A DNA stretch of 64,000 nucleotides from Corynebacterium pseudogenitalium (GTDB lineage: Bacteria > Actinomycetota > Actinomycetes > Mycobacteriales > Mycobacteriaceae): positions 2,325,604 through 2,389,603 of the forward strand of contig NZ_CP072934.1 of NCBI RefSeq assembly GCF_024453815.1, written 5' to 3'. Every line of letters starts with the position of its first letter. Position 1 is the first letter of the stretch. The notes beneath the pieces were generated by a model. It saw nothing but the letters and a program-made list of their open reading frames with translations, was not told where the DNA came from and did no database searches. Of the stretch, positions 4,269-15,119 are shown one piece after another. The position numbers and the translations under genes were made by a program.

Positions 4269-4301
4269 GGCACGCCAGGCATCCCGATCCAAACCGTGCT
4301 G

Positions 4302-5793
4302 GGCTCATCCCCGCAGGCGCGGGGAAGACGGAAACTTAAGCCCTACCGCCCATCAGACCAGAGGCTCATCCCCGCAGGCGCGGGGAGGATATTTGGGCCC
4401 GCCCACTCGATACCGGCGAGGGCGGCTCATCCCCGCAGGCGCGGGGAGGACCGCACCTGGTACCAGTTCGGGGCGGGGTTGATGGGCTCATCCCCGCAGG
4501 CGCGGGGAGGACTCTGCTGTTGGGTATGCGTCAATTCCGGTGACGGGCTCATCCCCGCGAGCGCGGGGAGGACGGAGTCGGTGACTCCACAGTGGTTGGC
4601 GCATTGGGCTCATCCCCGCGAGCGCGGGGAGGACTCGACCACGACCTACGAGAAGCCCTTCGAATCGGGCTCATCCCCGCGAGCGCGGGGAGGACACCAT
4701 CATTGACCACAACGCCGCCCAGGGTGTGGGCTCATCCCCGCGAGCGCGGGGAGGACGGGGTATGTGATGCATTTTGCGCGGGGGTTTTGGGCTCATCCCC
4801 GCGAGCGCGGGGAGGACTCGAGTTCCTTACTCATTGATTAGCTCCTTTGCGGCTCATCCCCGCGAGCGCGGGGAGGACTAGAGCGTCTTGAGTGGGTTGA
4901 GTTCGCGGTGGGGCTCATCCCCGCGAGCGCGGGGAGGACTTGGATACGTCAAGCATCTGCGCCGAAGACGCGGGCTCATCCCCGCGAGCGCGGGGAGGAC
5001 CTTGCCTTACACCTAGTATTCTATGTTACTAGGGGCTCATCCCCGCGAGCGCGGGGAGGACGCGGTGTCATTACGCACAAGGCGGACAACGCCGGGCTCA
5101 TCCCCGCGAGCGCGGGGAGGACTTGGAGCATCTAATCGCGCAGAATGATGTGCTGGGCTCATCCCCGCGAGCGCGGGGAGGACTTAGGCAAGATGTTCGC
5201 GTGGACTGGTGACCCGGGCTCATCCCCGCGAGCGCGGGGAGGACTCGACGCCGAAGTTGATGCGGCCTTCTTCGGTGGGCTCATCCCCGCGAGCGCGGGG
5301 AGGACGATGATACGCCAATCGTGCGTCAGACCTACATGGGCTCATCCCCGCGAGCGCGGGGAGGACTGGAAGTACGGCGCGGGCTGCTTCACGTGCTTGG
5401 GCTCATCCCCGCGAGCGCGGGGAGGACGACACCTGGCGCGGGGTGGAGTTCCTGCGTTGGGGCTCATCCCCGCGAGCGCGGGGAGGACTTTTTGCGCATT
5501 CAATGAACGCCTCCAAATCGGGGCTCATCCCCGCGAGCGCGGGGAGGACGTTCGTGTTGTACAGCTCTGCTTGGTAGCGGGGGGCTCATCCCCGCGAGCG
5601 CGGGGAGGACTGCGGTTTTGACTCGTTTTCCCTGTTGGTACCGGGCTCATCCCCGCGAGCGCGGGGAGGACAAAAGGCCCGCGTGGGGGATTTGATTCAT
5701 GTTGGGCTCATCCCCGCGAGCGCGGGGAGGACAAAAGGCCCGCGTGGGGGATTTGATTCATGTTGGGCTCATCCCCGCGAGCGCGGGGAGGAC
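4302..5793 (-). CRISPR. Type I-E CRISPR array, 25 repeats and 24 spacers
   Basis: Repeats of 28 bases occur at an exact 61-base period from 4302 to 5766, with 33-base spacers; the core is CCCCGCGAGCGCGGGG. In 22 of 25 repeats the flanking plus-strand base is G, so a 29-base repeat ending in C in the transcribed direction is equally valid. The reverse complement ends in GGGGATGAGCC, the usual I-E 3' end, so the array is read leftward. This agrees with an AT-rich leader and a leftward promoter at the right end, and with variant repeats at the left: the four at 4302-4512 read GCAGGCGC, and the first two also differ at the end. Spacers 5672-5704 and 5733-5765 are identical. Confidence 0.98.
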
Positions 5794-5852
5794 ACTTGCT
5801 GAGCTGCAAGTTTTGGAGCCTGTACCGCATTCTACATACGACTTGCTCTCGA

Positions 5853-5929
5853 AACATAGCCCCGCAAACGCGGGGATTATTATCAGCCCCAAATTTACAA
5901 GGGCTCATCCCTGCTTCCGCGGGGCTAAT
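5853..5929 (-). ncRNA. Candidate crRNA-like regulatory guide (CreR/CreA-type)
   Basis: Read leftward: a degenerate repeat (5929-5902) that keeps the crRNA 5'-handle bases GATGAGCC; a spacer-like stretch of about 20 bases starting TTGTAAATTTGGG; then a second degenerate repeat (5880-5853) with an intact CCCCGC/GCGGGG stem for Cas6e. The first 13 bases match 5989-6001 except at position 6. The target has AAC as PAM and overlaps the cas3 -35 box. crRNA-like RNAs that guide repression of cas genes or toxin genes through partial seed pairing are described for several type I systems; assigning this one is inference. It sits at the leader end, where decayed old repeats are not expected. Confidence 0.6.
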
Positions 5930-5933
5930 TTCA

Positions 5934-5962
5934 AATCTAATACCGCTGGAAACAACGTCCAA
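5934..5962 (-). promoter_or_regulatory. Leftward promoter for the guide-like RNA and array
   Basis: On the minus strand: TTGGAC (5962-5957), 17 bases, TAGATT (5939-5934). The predicted start is about seven bases further, at the first base of the degenerate repeat ending at 5929, so the transcript would begin with the guide-like unit and run through the leader into the array. Confidence 0.6.
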
Positions 5963-6008
5963 ACACGACATTCGGCATTGTAATTAACTTGTACATTTGG
6001 GTTACGGG

Positions 6009-6037
6009 TTGCACCGATGTGAAAAGACTGTTATAAC
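6009..6037 (+). promoter_or_regulatory. cas operon promoter
   Basis: TTGCAC (6009-6014), 17 bases, TATAAC (6032-6037), giving a start near 6044 and a leader of about 24 bases before the cas3 ATG. The -35 lies within the 32-base protospacer that would begin at 5989. Confidence 0.6.
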
Positions 6038-6067
6038 TTGAAGCAACATCGACAAAAGGATTTAAAC

Positions 6068-8854
6068 ATGAGGCCCGGACACGAACTGCCAGAAAGCACG
6101 CTCGAGACAGCTCAGCTGTTCGAAAAGTGGGTTTCGCAGCGCTCCCCGCAGGCGCAGTCACTTTGGGCTAAGTCCGGCGATGACACTGGTCATCTTTCAG
6201 TCCCCCAGCATCTCGTAGATGCAGCATGTTCCGCAGCTGCGGTGTTCGATGTGTGGGTCGCCGATAACATCAAACGCGAGATCGCGGGGCATCTAGGCAT
6301 CACCGTCGAGGAGCTCCGCACTTTTTATATTTGGCTCGCTGGCACCCACGACGTGGGAAAAATTACGCGTGCTTTCCAGACCCAGCTTCAAGATCGAGCC
6401 GGGTACGAGCATATCATCAATTCCATTGTCGATACTGGCCTTGACCTCGAAAAAGATGAACTTCCGAAGATGCCGCACGGCAGGAGTTCGGGAGTCATCC
6501 TGAGGCGCTGGCTGGAAGCACAAGGCATGCCGCGAACGATGGCTACATGGGTTGGGTCGATAGGGGACGCTCACCACGGAGTGGCGTCGACAGGCGACGA
6601 GAAGTCGGCTATTGAGGCTGTCCTCGAGGAGTACCCAGCGGCATGGCTAGGCGTTCAAGACGAAATTGTGAGCGCAATGACGACGACGCTGCACGCGCAA
6701 CCGGTCCTAGACAAAATCGGAAAGATCGAGGACCCCGAGGCAGGGGTTGCGCAGTTCCTGACTGGCTTGGTGGTCATTGCGGACTGGATAGCGTCGAATG
6801 CTGAGGCGTTTCCGATGGTCGTCGATAAAGGACAGGTCGAGAGGCTGCGGTCGGGGATGGCGCAGACCGACCTCACGGCTCCATGGCACCCAGCTAAACC
6901 GATCAGCGACATCGACGAGCTGTATCGAGCATCATTTGCCTGGCCCCAACACTTCAATGCGCGCAACGTGCAACGCGCACTCGCTGAAGCTGCCCGGCGC
7001 GCAACCCGGCCCACGCTGTTTATCCTTGAGGCGGAGACTGGCGTCGGTAAGACTGAGGCGGCGCTTGCCGCAGCACACATCATCGCTGATCAGACTGGCG
7101 CACAGGGCATCTACTTTGCGGCCCCCACTATGGCCACTGCGAACGGGCTACTGGAGCGAACCATCGACTGGGCGCGCAACACCTCAGGCGTTGGCGCTGT
7201 CACGTCGCTGTACCTCGCGCACTCCAAAAACCAGCTGTCACGGGCAGCAATGAGTCTGCCGCGCGGAATCGCCGAAGACGAAACGTCGAACCGCGGTGAT
7301 GTGATCGCGAGCAGCTGGATGCGGGGGAGACGTCGCGGCCTCCTCTCCAATATTGTCGTTGGCACTATTGACCAAGTCTTAATGATGTCGCTCATGCAAC
7401 GCTTTTCGATGCTGCGTCACGCCGCGCTAGCAGGAAAGGTCATCATTTTCGACGAGGTTCATGCCTATGACGCCTACACTTCCGAATACCTCGAAACCAC
7501 ACTTGAGTGGCTTGCGTACTACGGCGCGAGCGTCATTATGATGTCTGCGACGCTGCCAGCCCAGCGACGGGCCTCGCTCGTCGAAGCGTACACCGGGGTG
7601 GCTCCCGAGGAAGCACCACACGGCTACCCGCTGATTACGGTCGCCGATGAGTCTGCGACGACGTACATCACGCCACCCCCAAATCCAACCAACATGGTGG
7701 CCACCATCGAGCACATCGACGACTCACTCGACACTCTTCGAGGCACGCTCGACAACCTGCTTATCGACGGCGGCTGCGCCCTTATCATCTGCAACACCAT
7801 TGCCCGCGCCCAAGATGCGTACCGGGAGCTCAAAACCCAGTACGCGGATGACATCGAACTGCACCATGCCGGCTTCATCGCCTGGGAACGATCCCAAAAG
7901 GAAGACGAGCTCCGGGAACAACTCGGCCCGCACGCGCGGCGCGGCGCAGGTCGCCCATACCGCAAAGTTGTTGTTGCAACCCAGGTCGCCGAGCAGAGTC
8001 TGGATATCGACGCCGACGTACTGATCACCGACATCGCGCCGATGGACCTGGCAGTACAACGCGCTGGCCGACTACAGCGTCACAGCCGCCCGGTTGATGA
8101 CCGTCCACCTCAACTACAGGATCCGAAGATCTTTATTCGCGGCGTGCTCTCGCCCCTGCCGACTCCTGAATTCGACGGTGGTGCGAAGGCTATTTATGAC
8201 CCCCAGATTCTTCTTTCCACCCTGCTCCATCTGCCCACGACGTTCCATCGGCCAGACGACATCGAAGAACTCGTCCAGTCAACATATGACCTGGACACGA
8301 CCGTAGTGCCCGACGAGATGCAGCAAATCTGGGATGAAGCCGCTGGAGTAAGCCAACTAAGGCAGCATAACGCGCGAGAACGCTCGAAGTCTTTCCGGAC
8401 TCCATCCCCGTTCTGCTCGACTCGACTCAATGAATTCTTCAAGGACAGTAAGGCCGTGCTGAACCTGGACAGGGAAGAAGCCGGCGCCGCGCAGGTTCGC
8501 GACGCGGAGCCCACTGTCGAAGTGATACCCATCATCGAGACTGACTACGGGTACCGGCTATGGGGCGTCGATAAGGAAGTACTTGCCGACGCCGAGCCTG
8601 ACTATCAGACGGCATTCCAACTCGCATCAAGCACTGTGCGACTCCCGGCGCGCCTGACGCGATACGAGAGCGACTTCAACATCGTCATGGATGCGCTCGA
8701 GGAAAATACCCCTGTCACCTGGAGTAAGCACTACCTACTCAACGGCCAACTCGCACTTCCCCTCGACGAGGACGGCGAAACAAGGATCGGCCGATTCCTC
8801 GTTCGCTACAGCAGCGAGCTCGGAATCGAAGTCTCGTTCGAAAGGGGTGAGTAG
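6068..8854 (+). CDS. cas3: CRISPR-associated helicase/nuclease Cas3
   Basis: 928-residue effector nuclease of the type I-E system, recruited by DNA-bound Cascade to nick and degrade the target. The N-terminal HD domain shows GTHDVGKI (H94, D95). The helicase domains carry Walker A EAETGVGKTEAA near residue 325, DEVH near 461 and SAT in MMSATLP near 494. RNA-helicase-like motif VI (QRAGRLQRH) is also present. The ATG at 6068 is chosen because AAAAGGA lies 7 bases upstream; a longer TTG reading at 6038 would start at the -10 of the promoter. It is the first gene of the cas operon. Fifty-eight bases separate it from casA, so casA may have extra initiation control. Confidence 0.97.
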   Translation: MRPGHELPESTLETAQLFEKWVSQRSPQAQSLWAKSGDDTGHLSVPQHLVDAACSAAAVFDVWVADNIKREIAGHLGITVEELRTFYIWLAGTHDVGKITRAFQTQLQDRAGYEHIINSIVDTGLDLEKDELPKMPHGRSSGVILRRWLEAQGMPRTMATWVGSIGDAHHGVASTGDEKSAIEAVLEEYPAAWLGVQDEIVSAMTTTLHAQPVLDKIGKIEDPEAGVAQFLTGLVVIADWIASNAEAFPMVVDKGQVERLRSGMAQTDLTAPWHPAKPISDIDELYRASFAWPQHFNARNVQRALAEAARRATRPTLFILEAETGVGKTEAALAAAHIIADQTGAQGIYFAAPTMATANGLLERTIDWARNTSGVGAVTSLYLAHSKNQLSRAAMSLPRGIAEDETSNRGDVIASSWMRGRRRGLLSNIVVGTIDQVLMMSLMQRFSMLRHAALAGKVIIFDEVHAYDAYTSEYLETTLEWLAYYGASVIMMSATLPAQRRASLVEAYTGVAPEEAPHGYPLITVADESATTYITPPPNPTNMVATIEHIDDSLDTLRGTLDNLLIDGGCALIICNTIARAQDAYRELKTQYADDIELHHAGFIAWERSQKEDELREQLGPHARRGAGRPYRKVVVATQVAEQSLDIDADVLITDIAPMDLAVQRAGRLQRHSRPVDDRPPQLQDPKIFIRGVLSPLPTPEFDGGAKAIYDPQILLSTLLHLPTTFHRPDDIEELVQSTYDLDTTVVPDEMQQIWDEAAGVSQLRQHNARERSKSFRTPSPFCSTRLNEFFKDSKAVLNLDREEAGAAQVRDAEPTVEVIPIIETDYGYRLWGVDKEVLADAEPDYQTAFQLASSTVRLPARLTRYESDFNIVMDALEENTPVTWSKHYLLNGQLALPLDEDGETRIGRFLVRYSSELGIEVSFERGE

Positions 8855-8918
8855 TGGTGTCCCCTCCACCGCTACGCTGTAGTCATACGCACAACAATGA
8901 GAGAAAGGAGTGATGAAC

Positions 8919-10616
8919 GTGACATTCAACCTCGTACATGAACCGTGGATCTGCACCACAACGACTGACGGCGACAAAGTCCTCAGCTTGCAGCAAATTT
9001 TCGACGGCACCGAGCAGCCACTCAGCGTCGTTGGCGACTCACCGACACAGGACTACGCGGTGCTCCGAGTGCTGCTTGCCATTTACTGGCGAGCGCACCA
9101 CCATCACCTCAAGAGTTCAGTACCCACCGGCCGACGAAGCCGAGGTTTCCGCTGGGAGTCGTGGTTCCAGGAACAGCGCAACCAGGCGAGACAGCACCAG
9201 CGCGATGACATCGTTCTTGCTTATCTGAAAGAATACGAACACCGCTTCAATCTGATCGACGATGAAGTGCCGTTCATGCAGGTCGCAAACCTGCATACCA
9301 GCAAGAATTCAAACTCACCCATCTCGCGGATTCTCCCAGACGCCGAAGCAGATTTCTTCACCATGCGCACCGGCGCAGGGCGCGCCTCCATTTCGTTCCC
9401 GGAGGCAGCCAGGTGGCTGATCCACCAGCACGCCTACGATTACTCCGGTATCAAATCTGGCGCTGCAGATGACCCGCGCGCCTCAGGTGGCAAAGGCTAC
9501 CCGATCGGGACCGGGTGGGCTGGCATGACCGGCGGAACGGTCGTACGCGGCGACACACTGCAAGAAACACTGGTGCTCAATACGGTAAAGGAAGCAGTAG
9601 ACCCGACGGCCACCGGAGATTTACCGGCCTGGGAACGCGACCCCGATACCGCTAACCAGCGATTGTTCGACCCCAGTGCGCCCAAGGAAGGCGTGATGCC
9701 GAACGGCCCTGCTGACTTGGCAACCTGGCAAACCCGACGCATCCGGCTCTTCCCAGAGGGAGACCGCGTCACCAGAGTGCTCGTCTGCAATGGTGACCGC
9801 ATCCCAGACGCAGGAAAGAATGTTTTCGGCGACCCGATGACGCCATACCGGTACAGCCCGAATCAGAGTAAGAAAGACCTCACCGCGTACTACCCGAAGC
9901 CATACGATTCAGAGCGCACCGTGTGGAACTCGATCGATGCACTCCTTGTCAGCGAAAATGACGCCGGGTTTGGCGGAAAGAACCTGGCCCCGATCAAACC
10001 CGCAACACTCGCAAATCTGGCGGAGATTGCCGACGTGACCGGGGAGCAAGAACTGCTCGACATCGCCATTGTCTCCATGGCTTACGGCCCTCAGAGTTCT
10101 TCTGTCGGCACCGTGATCAGCGGCGAAATCGGGCTGCCCCTCTATCTGCTGCAGAACAATGAGTATTCCACCACCGACCGGCAACGTGTCCGCGCGGCCG
10201 CCCAGGCGGTGCGCGATACAGCGGTTTGCCTCGGCTGGTTTGAAGGACAACTCGCGGTCGCGGCAGGCGGAGAGTACAGCTTCGGCACCAAGTCGGTGGA
10301 CCGACTCTACGCCCTTCTCGAACCCGAGTTCATGACGTGGCTCCGGAATCTCAACATCGACGACGTAGCCTCCGAGTGCGTGCGCTGGCAGGAACTCGTC
10401 CGGGATAGCGCACTCGAGCTTGCAGCGGAACTCGTCCGAGGAGCAGGACCCAAAGCCATGATCGGCCGCCTCGATAGCACTGAAGACGGCAAAGGCCGTG
10501 TGATCAACGCCGGATCCATCCATAACCAGCTGCTTCGGAAGCTGCGCGACGCCCTTCCGCTTCTTGCCCAGCGAAACGCCGACCGCACATCACAACAGGG
10601 AGAAAACCATGACTAA
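8919..10616 (+). CDS. casA: Cascade large subunit Cse1 (Cas8e)
   Basis: 565-residue large subunit of type I-E Cascade; the family recognises the PAM and helps recruit Cas3. The N-terminus TFNLVHEPWI is the family signature. GTG at 8919 is preferred: GAAAGGAG at 8903-8910 is eight bases away, whereas ATG 8913 and GTG 8910 lie too close to it. Residues near 170-200 (ASGGKGYPIGTGWAG) match the glycine-rich segment seen in the family. The stop overlaps the casB start by eight bases. Confidence 0.95.
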   Translation: MTFNLVHEPWICTTTTDGDKVLSLQQIFDGTEQPLSVVGDSPTQDYAVLRVLLAIYWRAHHHHLKSSVPTGRRSRGFRWESWFQEQRNQARQHQRDDIVLAYLKEYEHRFNLIDDEVPFMQVANLHTSKNSNSPISRILPDAEADFFTMRTGAGRASISFPEAARWLIHQHAYDYSGIKSGAADDPRASGGKGYPIGTGWAGMTGGTVVRGDTLQETLVLNTVKEAVDPTATGDLPAWERDPDTANQRLFDPSAPKEGVMPNGPADLATWQTRRIRLFPEGDRVTRVLVCNGDRIPDAGKNVFGDPMTPYRYSPNQSKKDLTAYYPKPYDSERTVWNSIDALLVSENDAGFGGKNLAPIKPATLANLAEIADVTGEQELLDIAIVSMAYGPQSSSVGTVISGEIGLPLYLLQNNEYSTTDRQRVRAAAQAVRDTAVCLGWFEGQLAVAAGGEYSFGTKSVDRLYALLEPEFMTWLRNLNIDDVASECVRWQELVRDSALELAAELVRGAGPKAMIGRLDSTEDGKGRVINAGSIHNQLLRKLRDALPLLAQRNADRTSQQGENHD

Positions 10617-11238
10617 ACCCACCCTCCGCGCCGCAGTAGGGGCAACGGCGACGCGGCTACAGAACCACTACCTAGAGCAAGCCCATACCGCTCTAGGAGC
10701 TAGCGCCCGCGGATCGCTTGCCGACCTGCGCAAATATGCCTCAATAGGATTGGAGCATAACCCGCTCGCACTCCAAGACGTGCTCATGCTGCTGCAACCG
10801 GAACTCAGTGATCAAGAACTGGGAAAGTCTGACAAGCCCTCCCCAAGCGAGTACGCAGCGTTCTACGCACTCGCCCTGTTCGGGGTCCACATGCAAAGTG
10901 CACGCACACCGGCGCACAAGCAGGGAGATTCGTTCGCACTCGCATGTGGTCAGCTCTACAGAAAAACTGAGTCCAACTCAATAAAGCAGCGGTTCGACGC
11001 GATGCAGGTTGCTCTGGATTTCCCATCACGGATCACCCATCTACGTTCACTCGTCAGCCTGCTTCGCTCGCAAGACTTGCCGTTTGATTACGGGCAATTC
11101 GCCGGGGATCTCCGATCGCTCCAAAACCCAAAGTACCGGGACGGCGTTTTGCTGCGGTGGGGTAGAGACTTCGCCATCGGAACACTCCGGCCCTCTGCCC
11201 AGGCAGAAGCACAAGAACTCGACAACGCAATCCGCTAA
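10609..11238 (+). CDS. casB: Cascade small subunit Cse2
   Basis: 209-residue, mostly helical protein in the casB position; Cse2 dimers stabilise the R-loop along the non-target strand. The ATG at 10609 lies inside the last codons of casA with GGGAGA upstream, so translation is coupled. Similarity to the family is weak, as usual for Cse2 (LADLRKYA, FALYALALFGVH-type helices), but gene order leaves little doubt. Confidence 0.9.
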   Translation: MTKPTLRAAVGATATRLQNHYLEQAHTALGASARGSLADLRKYASIGLEHNPLALQDVLMLLQPELSDQELGKSDKPSPSEYAAFYALALFGVHMQSARTPAHKQGDSFALACGQLYRKTESNSIKQRFDAMQVALDFPSRITHLRSLVSLLRSQDLPFDYGQFAGDLRSLQNPKYRDGVLLRWGRDFAIGTLRPSAQAEAQELDNAIR

Positions 11239-11262
11239 CTTCTACTTTTCGAAAGGACAATC

Positions 11263-12393
11263 ATGTCTCTCATCATCGATATCCACGCACTTCAGACAGT
11301 CCCGCCTTCACTCATCAACCGCGACGATACCGGCGCCCCTAAGACAGCCGTGTTCGGCGGCGTCCCACGTCAGCGCGTCTCCTCCCAGTCCTGGAAGCGC
11401 GCAATCCGCAAGTACTTCGCCGAGCACTTCGATCCAGAATCCATCGGTGACCGCTCCAAGCGCCTTCCAGAAAAGATCGCGAAGCAGCTCGCCAAAGTTG
11501 CCGGCATCTCCGATGAAGACGCCATCAAGCGCACGGAGCAGCTCTTCAACGCTGTAAAGATCAAGACCGTCGTAGAGAAGCCAAAGAAGGGCGACGACAC
11601 CGAACACAACCCATGGCCACAAACCACCTACCTGATCTTCCTCAGCCCACAGCAAATCGATCGCGCTGTCCGCGAGCTTGCTGAGCGCGACGGTCAGAAG
11701 TTCACTAAGGCCGAAGCGACTGCCATTTTGGATACCAACCACAGCGTGGACATGTCTATGTTCGGTCGAATGGTTGCTGACGACGCATCCTTCAATGTCG
11801 ACGCAGCAGTCCAGGTAGCGCACGCCATCGGCGTGCACGCATCCGCGCCCGAATTCGACTTCTACACCGCCGTCGACGACCTTGCCGAAGAAGGCGAAGA
11901 AACTGGTGCAGGGATGCTCGGCACCGTACAGATGATGTCCTCCAGCCTCTACCGCTACGCCACCATCAACGTCGACGGGCTCAAGAAAAACCTCGAGTCC
12001 GCCGACGCCACGATTAAGGCTGTTGAGCAGTTCATCGAGGCATTCGTCGCGTCCATGCCAACCGGCAAGATCAATACCTTCGCCAACCAGACGCTCCCCG
12101 AGCTCGTCTACGTCACCGTCCGCGATACCCGCCCAGTCTCCCTCGTCACTGCTTTTGAAGACGCGGTGACTGCAACCGAGCAACTCGACCGCCGCCACGT
12201 AGCAGCAGCACGTCTTGCCGACGAGGCACGCGCAATTCAGGACACCTACGGCTTCGTCCCCACCAGCCAGTACGTCCTCGGTCTCGGCGATATTGCCGCG
12301 CCATTCGACGGCCTCGCAGAGCGCGTAACACTGAAGGAGCTGGGCGAACGCGTCGCAGCCGACGTTGCCACCGCACTAGGTGATGACGCATGA
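11263..12393 (+). CDS. casC: Cascade backbone subunit Cas7e (Cse4)
   Basis: 376-residue backbone protein; six copies bind the spacer part of the crRNA. Family motifs include the N-terminal IDIHALQTVPPSLINRDDTG, VPRQRVSSQSWKRA and the glycine-rich GMLGTVQMMSSSLYRYATIN. A good ribosome-binding site (GAAAGGAC) precedes the ATG after a 24-base gap from casB. The stop overlaps the start of casD by four bases (ATGA). The thumb of each Cas7 flips out every sixth guide base, which matters for the guide-like RNA upstream of cas3. Confidence 0.96.
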   Translation: MSLIIDIHALQTVPPSLINRDDTGAPKTAVFGGVPRQRVSSQSWKRAIRKYFAEHFDPESIGDRSKRLPEKIAKQLAKVAGISDEDAIKRTEQLFNAVKIKTVVEKPKKGDDTEHNPWPQTTYLIFLSPQQIDRAVRELAERDGQKFTKAEATAILDTNHSVDMSMFGRMVADDASFNVDAAVQVAHAIGVHASAPEFDFYTAVDDLAEEGEETGAGMLGTVQMMSSSLYRYATINVDGLKKNLESADATIKAVEQFIEAFVASMPTGKINTFANQTLPELVYVTVRDTRPVSLVTAFEDAVTATEQLDRRHVAAARLADEARAIQDTYGFVPTSQYVLGLGDIAAPFDGLAERVTLKELGERVAADVATALGDDA

Positions 12394-13112
12394 GTTCCTC
12401 CCTACTCCTCCTACTGAAAGGGCCCCTACAGTCATGGGGTGATGAGTCTCGGCACAAAATACGTGCTACTGCGCTCACACCGACGAAATCGGGCATCATC
12501 GGCCTCATCGCTGCAGCGCAGGGGCGTCGACGAACGGACCCAGTCGAAGACCTCACTCGCCTCCGGCTCGGAGTGCGCGTTGACCAATCAGGCAGCCTAC
12601 TGCGTGACTACCAGACGGCCCAGCCCTGGCTTACCGACCCGAACGCATCCGCGGAGCTCATCACCCGATACTTCCTCAGCGACGCTGCGTTCGTAGTAGC
12701 CGTCGAATCGGACGACCGCGCACTGCTAGAGGGCATCGCGGAAGCACTACGCGCTCCCGCATTCCCACTCTTCATGGGCCGAAGGTCATGCCCAGTCCAC
12801 CCAGGGCTAGTGATCGGCATCGTCGACACCGACGCGGAAACTGCGCTGCGCGAGCATCCGACATGGTACGCAACAGCCCAACACAAGCGCGAAGCGCCAA
12901 AACACGTCAACTTGGCACTCTACCGGGATGCGGACGAGGAAGAACAAGGCGGAGTCCGGCGACAGGACGTGCCCATAAGCTTCGACCCGCAGCACCGACG
13001 CTACGGGTGGCGTGACGTTCTGCGCGTAGAGGACGTCGCTATCGATAATCCGGATGGAACTGAATCGCTGGTGGACAGTGACGTTTTCTTCGAAACGGTG
13101 ATCAAGGCATGA
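12390..13112 (+). CDS. casD: Cascade subunit Cas5e
   Basis: 240-residue RAMP protein that caps the crRNA 5' handle in type I-E Cascade. The N-terminus SSLLLLLKGPLQSWGDESR is characteristic, as are LIAAAQGRRRTDP and FPLFMGRRSCP. The start overlaps casC and the stop overlaps cas6e, each by ATGA, so all three are translationally coupled. Confidence 0.96.
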   Translation: MSSSLLLLLKGPLQSWGDESRHKIRATALTPTKSGIIGLIAAAQGRRRTDPVEDLTRLRLGVRVDQSGSLLRDYQTAQPWLTDPNASAELITRYFLSDAAFVVAVESDDRALLEGIAEALRAPAFPLFMGRRSCPVHPGLVIGIVDTDAETALREHPTWYATAQHKREAPKHVNLALYRDADEEEQGGVRRQDVPISFDPQHRRYGWRDVLRVEDVAIDNPDGTESLVDSDVFFETVIKA

Positions 13113-13819
13113 GCAATACATTCACAAGGATCCTCATTAACCCTGCCCGACGCCAAGGCAGGAGACTGCTCACCGACTCCCAAGCGATGCACGCCGCCGT
13201 ACGCAGTGCGTTCCCGCCGGATCTCGATGAGACTGCAGGCCGGGTGCTGTGGCGCGTCGATAGCCACGAGCACACCCACGTGCTCTACATTGTGGGGCCC
13301 GAAAAACCGACCGCTGACTCCATCGTGGAACAGGCAGGGTGGGATACCCGGCCGGCGAAGATCGCCGACTACAACCGCTTCCTCGACAGCATCATGAAAG
13401 GGCAGCGCTGGCGGTTCGAACTTGTCGCCAACCCAACGTATAGCGAGTTTCAGCAGGGTAAACGAGGCAAAGTCAAGGCGCACGTTTCCCCGCGTCACCA
13501 GCTGGCTTGGCTGCGTAAAAAGTCACTCGCGCATGGGTTTGCGCTCGCACCAGGACTCGATGACGAGGTCAGCGACGAAGAGCGCGCACGCTGGGATGCG
13601 TTTGAAGCACCGACAGTCATCCAAAGCTGGACCGACGTGTTCCACCGGAAGAAAGCCGACGGTACCAAAGGCAGGCCCGTCCGGATTGCCAAGGCCCGCT
13701 TTTCCGGAGTCCTGGAAGTCACTGACGTCGAAGCTTTTCGACGCACCCTCACCCAAGGCATCGGACGTGGTCGCGGCTACGGTTGTGGCCTCCTGACGCT
13801 GGCCGATCCCACCAAATAG
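13109..13819 (+). CDS. cas6e: crRNA-processing endonuclease Cas6e (Cse3)
   Basis: 236-residue RAMP endonuclease that cuts the repeat hairpin and stays bound to the 3' stem in Cascade. The C-terminus has the glycine-rich loop GIGRGRGYGCGLLTL. An N-terminal Tyr/His pair cannot be fixed without alignment, but HEHTHVLYIVG is in the expected region. It lies between casD (four-base overlap) and cas1. Its substrates here should include the array repeats and possibly the two degenerate repeats at 5853-5929, both of which keep a CCCCGC-type stem or part of it. Confidence 0.95.
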   Translation: MSNTFTRILINPARRQGRRLLTDSQAMHAAVRSAFPPDLDETAGRVLWRVDSHEHTHVLYIVGPEKPTADSIVEQAGWDTRPAKIADYNRFLDSIMKGQRWRFELVANPTYSEFQQGKRGKVKAHVSPRHQLAWLRKKSLAHGFALAPGLDDEVSDEERARWDAFEAPTVIQSWTDVFHRKKADGTKGRPVRIAKARFSGVLEVTDVEAFRRTLTQGIGRGRGYGCGLLTLADPTK

Positions 13820-13827
13820 GTGCTGAG

Positions 13828-14766
13828 ATGCCAACGCCTCATGAACTGCCGATCACTCGCCGTGCACTCGCGCGAATGAGTGATCGGCTGTCCTTCCTTT
13901 ACGCGGAACGGTGCGTGGTCAACCGTGACGGCAACGCGTTGACGATCACCGACCAACGCGGCACCGCACACGTCCCCGCGACACAACTTGCGGTGCTCCT
14001 GCTCGGCCCCGGAACCCGGATCACCTACGCCGCGATGGCACTCCTCGGCGACGCAGGCACCAGCACAGTTTGGGTCGGCGAGCGCGGTGTCCGGTACTAC
14101 GCCTCCGGCCGCCCACCCGCGAAGTCATCGCGGATGGCGCTGCTCCAAGCGGAAGTCGTAACGCACCAGCGCAAACGGCTTGACTGCGCCCGGAAAATGT
14201 ACAGCCTCAGATTCCCGGGAGAGGACGTGTCCACTCTCACCATGGCGCAGCTGCGCGGCAGGGAAGGCTCCCGCATGAAACGTGTCTACGCCGCCGAAGC
14301 CGAACGAACCGGCGTGTACTGGGACCGACGAAGCTACGACCCGCACGACTTCGACTCCGGCACACCCATCAACCAAGCGCTCACTGCGGCAAGCGCAGCG
14401 CTCTACGGCATTGCTCACGCAGTCATTGCCGGGCTTGGGTTCGTTCCCGCACTCGGAGTTGTCCACACCGGAACAGACCGCGCGTTCGTCTACGACATCG
14501 CCGACCTGTACAAAGCCGAGATCGCCATCCCCGCCGCGTTCGACGCAGTAGCTGAAGCGAAAGGGAAACCGCATATCGAGGTGCGACGGAAGGTGCGCGA
14601 CGCTGTCGTCGAAAAGCGACTGATGCAGCGCATGGTCAAAGACCTCCAATACGTCATGGACGTACCCGAAGAAGAACTCTACAGCGATGTCGAACTGATG
14701 CTGTGGAGCGAATTGGAAGTCATCTCTGCAGGCGTCAACTGGGCAGAGGAAGAGGCACTGCAATGA
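13828..14766 (+). CDS. cas1: CRISPR integrase Cas1
   Basis: 312-residue type I-E Cas1 (MPTPHELPITRRALARMSDR), the catalytic subunit of the Cas1-Cas2 spacer integrase. The metal-binding region HTGTDRAFVYDIADLYK is intact, and a glutamate lies in RSYDPHDFDS..NQALTAASAALYG. The ATG at 13828 follows TGCTGAG after cas6e. Its stop overlaps the cas2 start (ATGA). The duplicated leader-proximal spacer suggests recent array change. Confidence 0.97.
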   Translation: MPTPHELPITRRALARMSDRLSFLYAERCVVNRDGNALTITDQRGTAHVPATQLAVLLLGPGTRITYAAMALLGDAGTSTVWVGERGVRYYASGRPPAKSSRMALLQAEVVTHQRKRLDCARKMYSLRFPGEDVSTLTMAQLRGREGSRMKRVYAAEAERTGVYWDRRSYDPHDFDSGTPINQALTAASAALYGIAHAVIAGLGFVPALGVVHTGTDRAFVYDIADLYKAEIAIPAAFDAVAEAKGKPHIEVRRKVRDAVVEKRLMQRMVKDLQYVMDVPEEELYSDVELMLWSELEVISAGVNWAEEEALQ

Positions 14767-15119
14767 TGGTGCTCATCGTCACCGCATGCCCGGCGGGCCT
14801 GCGCGGCGACCTGACAAAGTGGCTCATGGAACTCAGCCCAGGTGTCTTCGTGGGCACCCCATCAGCTCGCATCCGAGACCTACTCTGGGACCGCACCATC
14901 GAGCTCTGCAAAGACGGCAGGGCACTGCTCGTCTACAGCTCAAATAACGAGCAAGGCATGGAGTTCCGCGAGCACCGGCACGCCTGGAAACCGACAGACT
15001 TCGACGGCATTACGCTCATGATGCGCGAGAACGCGCGAGCACCAAAACGGCGCACCGGGTGGAGCAAGGCACGACGGCAGCGCATCGCATACGAGCGAGA
15101 CAGGCGGACTTCGTCTTAG
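14763..15119 (+). CDS. cas2: CRISPR integrase subunit Cas2 (type I-E)
   Basis: 118-residue ferredoxin-fold protein of the I-E Cas2 family: N-terminal VLIVTACPAGLRGDLTKWL, then GVFVGTPSARIRDLLW. It bridges two Cas1 dimers during spacer capture. The C-terminal tail past residue 95 is basic. It overlaps cas1 by four bases and is the last gene of the operon. Repeat copy B begins 55 bases downstream. Confidence 0.95.
   Translation: MMVLIVTACPAGLRGDLTKWLMELSPGVFVGTPSARIRDLLWDRTIELCKDGRALLVYSSNNEQGMEFREHRHAWKPTDFDGITLMMRENARAPKRRTGWSKARRQRIAYERDRRTSS

Follow-up and report, generated by a model that had tools for sequence, protein, structure and literature searches.

Between the CRISPR array and the cas operon of Corynebacterium pseudogenitalium lies a short interval with two degenerate repeats, which raises the question of what such a unit might do and on which DNA it might act. 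We examined it within a stretch of 64,000 nucleotides, here called the window, for which an earlier note had proposed a crRNA-like guide directing Cascade to the cas3 promoter. Our analysis suggests that the minus strand of 5852-5929 is very probably creR, a gene whose RNA, once loaded into Cascade, would bind and repress the cell's own cas operon without cutting, and would sense the load of crRNAs and anti-CRISPRs. The features on which this reading rests are as follows.

4301-5793, minus strand: type I-E CRISPR array with 25 repeats and 24 spacers (32 nt each); it is read leftward, divergent from the operon
5794-5851, minus strand: array leader, similar to that of the post-cas2 array in locus L103; it contains a promoter-like element, TCGTATGTAGAAT, and has a CTCAGCAAGT end
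5852-5880, minus strand: psiR2, the second repeat, with a perfect Cas6e-type stem at 5860-5875 and its handle lost
5881-5900, minus strand: CreR guide, 20 nt, TTGTAAATTTGGGGCTGATA read 5900..5881
5901-5929, minus strand: psiR1, the first repeat, with a diverged stem and an intact 8-nt handle, ATGAGCCC, at 5901-5908
5860-5908, minus strand: predicted mature CreR of 49 nt, assuming Cas6e cleavage 3' of the stem in both repeats
5934-5962, minus strand: putative creR promoter TTGGAC-N17-TAGATT, read 5962..5934
5986-5988, plus strand: PAM of the CreR target, AAC
5989-6008, plus strand: CreR target, of which 5989-6001 (TTGTACATTTGGG) is matched at 12/13 with the mismatch at position 6
6009-6037, plus strand: putative cas3 promoter TTGCAC-N17-TATAAC, with the -35 box at 6009-6014 and the -10 box at 6032-6037
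6068-8854, plus strand: cas3, with its ATG at 6068
8910-15119, plus strand: cas8e, cse2, cas7, cas5, cas6e, cas1 and cas2

The type I-E operon is complete from cas3 to cas2 on the plus strand, and its Cas3 is 100% identical to that of Corynebacterium sp. NML98-0116. The interval between array and operon holds, on the minus strand, a mini-CRISPR consisting of repeat, guide and repeat, the coordinates of which were checked base by base. The first repeat, psiR1 (5929..5901, ATTAGCCCCGCGGAAGCAGGGATGAGCCC), is identical to the leader-proximal array repeat at 21/29 positions and carries a C.A mismatch at pair 4 of its stem next to the intact handle, while psiR2 (5880..5852, ATAATCCCCGCGTTTGCGGGGCTATGTTT) is identical at 18/29 and forms a perfect CCCCGC/GCGGGG stem. 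The two degenerate repeats around a spacer-like segment described earlier, with handle kept in the first and stem in the second, were found as described. This is the anatomy of a crRNA-like gene as known from CreR, i.e., a spacer analogue between repeat analogues with handle and stem, one pair of the psiR1 stem being mismatched. An ordinary array unit looks different: here the repeats have diverged to 21/29 and 18/29, and the guide has 20 nt versus 32 nt in 24/24 array spacers. The unit had also been placed in the CRISPR leader, a position that we have to correct, as it sits just upstream of the array leader.

The letters of the proposed creR promoter are present, but a consensus promoter scan of 5740-6120 called no promoter, neither for creR nor for cas3, and we therefore refer to both as putative. 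The predicted creR start would fall a few nucleotides before psiR1. Judging from type I-E processing, the mature CreR would comprise ~49 nt and read AUGAGCCC-UUGUAAAUUUGGGGCUGAUA-...-GCGGGG; cutting by Cas6e at psiR1 is not certain because the stem of this repeat carries the mismatch. An Rfam search of 5700-6100 gave no match up to E = 1. When the minus strand of 5852-5929 is folded as naked RNA, the repeats base-pair with one another in a single long hairpin (-40.7 kcal/mol, z -5.3), a structure that could form at the expense of the Cas6e stems.

Comparison of the guide with the DNA upstream of cas3 confirmed base by base the pairing claimed by the earlier note, i.e., 12/13 at 5989-6001 with the single mismatch at position 6. 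The AAC that it had read before the target is likewise present at 5986-5988 and agrees with the published Corynebacterium I-E PAM 'AC', as given in the excerpt of PMC8482600 (Table 1). The guide thus has the partial complementarity, beside a valid PAM, to the promoter region of its cognate cas operon that is characteristic of CreR. Since the guide has 20 nt, the 32-base protospacer assumed previously, and said to overlap the cas3 -35 box, is too long; the 20-nt protospacer at 5989-6008 abuts the box without covering it. In the related CreA RNAs the seed comprises positions 1-5 and 7-11, and changes at position 6 or 12 are tolerated, according to PMC8501985. A full 10/10 match of this seed on either strand arose in 26 of 20,000 Markov-1 shuffles of 5909-6127, and in 3 of 20,000 when an AA- PAM was included. 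The combined pattern of PAM and seed, AANTTGTANATTTGNG, occurs exactly once in the 2.39-Mb genome, namely at the cas3 site. A search of the same genome for a second target returned no other exact match and two places with one mismatch, one of them lacking an AA- PAM.

We then surveyed 201 genomes of the genus, evenly drawn from a larger group, among which 78 carried a Cas3 at E <= 1e-50. Upstream DNA was taken from 76 of these (the partial hits G051 and G086 were left out), and three loci came from a scan of genome contigs. Four records that duplicate another locus were dropped to give 75 distinct cas3 loci: L002, L012 and L031, which are the same as L032, L033 and L003, respectively, across the 1400 nt compared, and L001 from the window genome, which equals L032 over 303 nt upstream of cas3 and has a different array. 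A guide/target pair was present in 58 of the 75 loci, the mini-CRISPR lying on the minus strand in 43 and on the plus strand in 15. By Cas3 relationship, pairs occurred in 43/55 loci with 43% or more Cas3 identity to the window and in 15/20 of the group at 33-38%. No pair was found in 17/75 loci, including L069, where the gap between cas3 and cas8e lies off the contig.

We also employed a target-blind test in which the guide was set by the first GATGAGCC-like minus-strand handle upstream of cas3 and the target was ignored. Such a handle was present in 41/75 loci. The guides defined in this way matched their own promoter with 10/10 seed positions in 27/41 loci and with 9-10/10 in 35/41, compared to 2/1564 and 38/1564, respectively, for swapped pairings between loci with unlike guides. 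L008, L020, L035 and L044 took a chance handle nearer to cas3 and stand as misses in this test; they were corrected by hand for all later counts, and the 58-locus count adds loci with other repeat forms or the opposite strand. Two of the 43 minus-strand pairs, L005 and L039, match at only 8/10 seed positions. Despite wide differences in guide sequence among species, every guide fits the cas promoter region of its own locus. In 14 loci from other Actinomycetota (with only ~220 nt upstream in view for L094) we found one convincing pair, L086 from another actinobacterial family, where a plus-strand mini-CRISPR has its site behind AAT and matches at 16/20 with mismatches at positions 6, 10, 12 and 20. 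The other 9-of-10 matches in these loci outside the genus looked like chance.

To describe the pairing position by position, we took one member per guide cluster. Over the resulting 46 clusters, matches at positions 1-10 numbered 46, 45, 44, 46, 43, 16, 46, 46, 43 and 43, and those at positions 11-20 numbered 39, 13, 41, 31, 25, 23, 14, 11, 13 and 12. Seed positions contributed in part to the choice of the pairs, so that selection itself accounts for some of the seed counts; positions 6 and 12-20 played no role in it, and the A at PAM position -2 entered the selection of the 15 plus-strand pairs as well. Matching at positions 6, 12 and 17-20 is no different from the 25% expected by chance. A search free of any PAM filter gave AAC in 19, AAG in 2 and AAT in 1 of 22 clusters. 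The seed rule taken from CreA, with 1-5 and 7-11 paired and 6 and 12 free, holds in the Corynebacterium pairs, and the R-loop-like profile is the footprint that one would expect of Cascade. In the E. coli I-E system, more than 18 bp are needed for interference and priming and far fewer for binding, as stated in PMC5904413, and the drop to chance at position 17 fits this requirement.

Guide and target also change together. Between similar loci, 18 of 22 changes in the seed (position 13 included) were mirrored in the target, the pairs overlapping and not being independent, whereas 0/9 changes at positions 6 or 12 and 2/17 at position 14 or beyond were compensated; 43 minus-strand and 5/15 plus-strand loci entered this comparison. 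A clear case is the sister strain NML130628 (92% Cas3 identity), in which guide positions 5, 7 and 8 have changed along with the same three letters of the target; position 6 differs without matching, and the surrounding region is 91% identical overall. The earlier note had suggested looking in relatives for covariation of guide and promoter, and it is indeed there, both in NML130628 and in the comparison of own (35/41) with swapped (38/1564) pairings. Its central proposal, a crRNA-like guide aimed at the cas3 promoter, thus gains support from covariation and PAM agreement.

Of the 42 minus-strand loci measured, 25 have guides of 19-20 nt and 17 have guides of 31-32 nt. A Cas6e-type psiR2 stem is present in 42/43 loci of the first orientation (it is absent in L056), and the psiR1 stem is more variable than the psiR2 stem. 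In 11 minus-strand loci the mini-CRISPR is followed by the array; in six solo loci inspected (L103-L108) the array comes immediately behind cas2, and ~9 kb separate it from the mini-CRISPR, which stays at cas3. We considered a terminator function of the psiR2 T-run, kept only where no array follows, and dropped it, as the T counts of 31 solo and 11 array-adjacent loci did not differ (p = 0.41). In L042 and L044 the target lies ~290-330 nt before the cas3 match and thus farther away than elsewhere, perhaps due to another reading frame ahead of cas3. The second Cas3 group, set apart by identity and not by a tree, employs plus-strand mini-CRISPRs with handles such as ATGTTCC, ATGATCC and ATGACCC. 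Nine of its loci have the target upstream of cas3, on one strand or the other, and L059, L061, L062, L066, L070 and L073, for which gene positions were checked, have it between cas3 and cas8e. Within the cas3-cas8e gap of the genomes of L070 and L073 (gap regions L130 and L133), both mini-CRISPR and target lie inside the gap, the same place as that of the CreTA-like module of Citrobacter rodentium in the excerpt of PMC12055562. Upstream of cas3 in L061, two tandem copies of the second repeat follow the guide, as if a unit had been gained.

The window genome and NML98-0116, which belong to the same species, share an identical 303-nt stretch upstream of cas3, and only 6 of the 19 window-strain spacers compared recur among the 36 compared of NML98-0116. 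The array therefore is or was active, and within the species it turns over while the regulator stays. The two newest spacers of the window array (5672-5703 and 5733-5764) are identical, which suggests duplication of a unit or double acquisition. Among 14 records from a phage search, one is a tentative protospacer: spacer 9 (5245-5276) matches the terminase gene of Corynebacterium phage CL31 (L140) at 28/32 positions behind AAC, counted from the printed sequence, with a BLAST E of 0.5 and 3/4 mismatches at positions 7-9. A plasmid search with the array yielded 90 records at 60-80% identity among the matches listed and was not used, and a scan of viral contigs for close relatives of Cas8e returned none. 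As judged by eye, the leaders of the window (5794-5851), L103, L105 and L107 all contain, ~45 nt ahead of the first repeat, an element like TCGTATGTA or TTGAnnnTAnAnT and close with a motif like CTnnTCAnnAAGt; the former may be the array promoter and the latter a leader-anchoring motif. CreR and array are both read leftward, and we considered a single transcription unit. Because the leader, by eye, resembles those of post-cas2 arrays and contains a promoter-like element, we set this idea aside; the array probably has its own promoter, which is likelier than co-transcription with CreR, although read-through may occur.

From these observations we infer transcription, processing, loading, repression and sensing as follows. 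The creR transcript would be cut by Cas6e in the two degenerate repeats, giving a crRNA-like product in which handle and 3' stem are normal and the guide is shortened to 20 nt. Cascade loaded with this RNA would recognise the AAC at 5986-5988, open ~13 bp at 5989-6001 and, sitting just upstream of the cas3 -35 box, hinder RNA polymerase, so that transcription from cas3 and cas8e through cas2 would be lowered. The pairing, and here even the whole guide, would be too short to trigger Cas3, and the chromosome would therefore stay uncut. Other systems offer precedents: in a type I-B system of Haloarcula, repression by a 24-bp spacer came without interference (PMC10989794), and type I-F Cascade assembles with 14-nt spacers (PMC7296934). 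In E. coli, off-target binding of Cascade at short matches left the expression of nearby genes unchanged (section 9 in the excerpt of PMC5904413), and a short R-loop must therefore be well placed or strong enough. Immune crRNAs and anti-CRISPRs would leave less Cascade loaded with CreR, and expression of the cas genes is therefore expected to increase with an ample supply of crRNAs or a block of Cascade; this relief is modelled on that described in the CreR reviews PMC12737573, PMC12948488 and PMC13131331.

How do other explanations fare against these data? Degenerate repeats (21/29 and 18/29) adjoining an array might simply be its decayed end, with worn-out leader-proximal repeats around an old self-derived spacer of no present role. 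We regard this as very improbable, given that guides and targets covary between species, that a mini-CRISPR is retained at cas3 even in loci with the array in another place, and that neutral decay would not spare positions 1-5, 7-11 and 13 and yet release 6 and 12. The same exemption of positions 6 and 12 speaks against guide and target being two DNA sites of a protein regulator of divergent promoters, even though the copies do form an inverted repeat flanking the divergent promoter region in the window and other minus-strand loci. Moreover, the sequences vary freely from one species to another, a repeat handle precedes the guide copy and AAC, AAT or AAG the target copy in 46/46 clusters (partly by selection), and the copies stand in direct orientation in L059, L060, L063, L064 and L066, which leaves a protein-read repeat with hardly any probability.

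The anatomy of the RNA would equally suit a CreA antitoxin that represses a small toxin in a CreTA module, and a type I-E CreTA-like module is reported between cas3 and casA of Citrobacter rodentium in PMC12055562. The gene after the target promoter is cas3, however, the ATG of which at 6068 lies 30 nt past the putative -10 box and leaves little room for a toxin, and in four relatives (L059, L061, L062 and L066) the target is in the cas3-cas8e gap instead; the chance that the window encodes such an antitoxin thus appears very small. Finally, CreR might activate or merely mark the promoter, e.g., by affecting the divergent creR promoter, and not repress cas3 at all. The position of the target upstream of the putative -35 box and the varying distance between target and gene among loci would allow for this, yet the known CreR and CreA cases repress, according to excerpts of PMC12737573 and PMC8501985, and we consider activation or marking unlikely.

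For the genus as a whole, it seems reasonably likely that type I-E CRISPR systems of Corynebacterium as a rule repress themselves, with repeated re-aiming and with the pairing held at ~13-16 bp by evolution. The repeated re-aiming may reflect either repeated origins of mini-CRISPRs or rearrangements of one gene. If this holds true, the pairing lies below the more than 18 bp that E. coli needs, and the genus would therefore be a natural read-out of the R-loop length with which Cascade represses without cutting, its dozens of guide/target pairs indicating which base pairs are needed in nature for such binding. The comparisons also constitute strong sequence evidence that, in much of a genus that comprises commensals, opportunists and industrial bacteria, a CRISPR effector serves to repress itself. 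We predict that array load and anti-CRISPR proteins influence cas expression in Corynebacterium species, a point of relevance to those who use or measure the native CRISPR systems of these species.

Among known systems, the mini-CRISPR is best filed as a candidate CreR (cas-regulating RNA). The original CreR report is said to have appeared in Cell Host & Microbe in 2023. The novelty implied by the earlier note does not hold, as CreR has been published for type I-E and also for type I-B and V-A systems, going by excerpts of the reviews PMC13131331 and PMC12737573. The literature searched contained no paper on CreR in Corynebacterium among the matches listed, and no description of its frequency and repeated re-aiming in this genus, the original CreR report, which may cover the genus, aside. 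Common to CreR and the Corynebacterium loci are a crRNA-like RNA, partial complementarity to a cas promoter and the lack of a toxin, type I-E included. The differences are the guides of 19-20 nt (25/42 measured loci) or 31-32 nt (17/42) and, in the window, the placement of creR between array leader and cas3.

Cas9 autorepression through tracr-L follows a similar logic, in that an effector represses its own expression, and differs in its machinery and guide, which are unrelated to Cascade. Self-repression of SpyCas9 is mentioned in PMC13131331. CreA of Haloarcula and relatives shares with the Corynebacterium RNAs a pair of degenerate repeats, the stem of psiR1 having diverged further than that of psiR2 (as the excerpt of PMC9458426 has it for CreA), and the seed of positions 1-5 and 7-11 with 6 and 12 free. 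In the window, psiR1 keeps its handle and psiR2 has lost it. While the anatomy of the RNA is thus CreA-like, the promoter targeted in the window leads into cas3 and not into a toxin: the RNA repressed by CreA is that of a toxin, whereas the Corynebacterium guides are aimed at cas3 or, in some relatives, at a site before cas8e.
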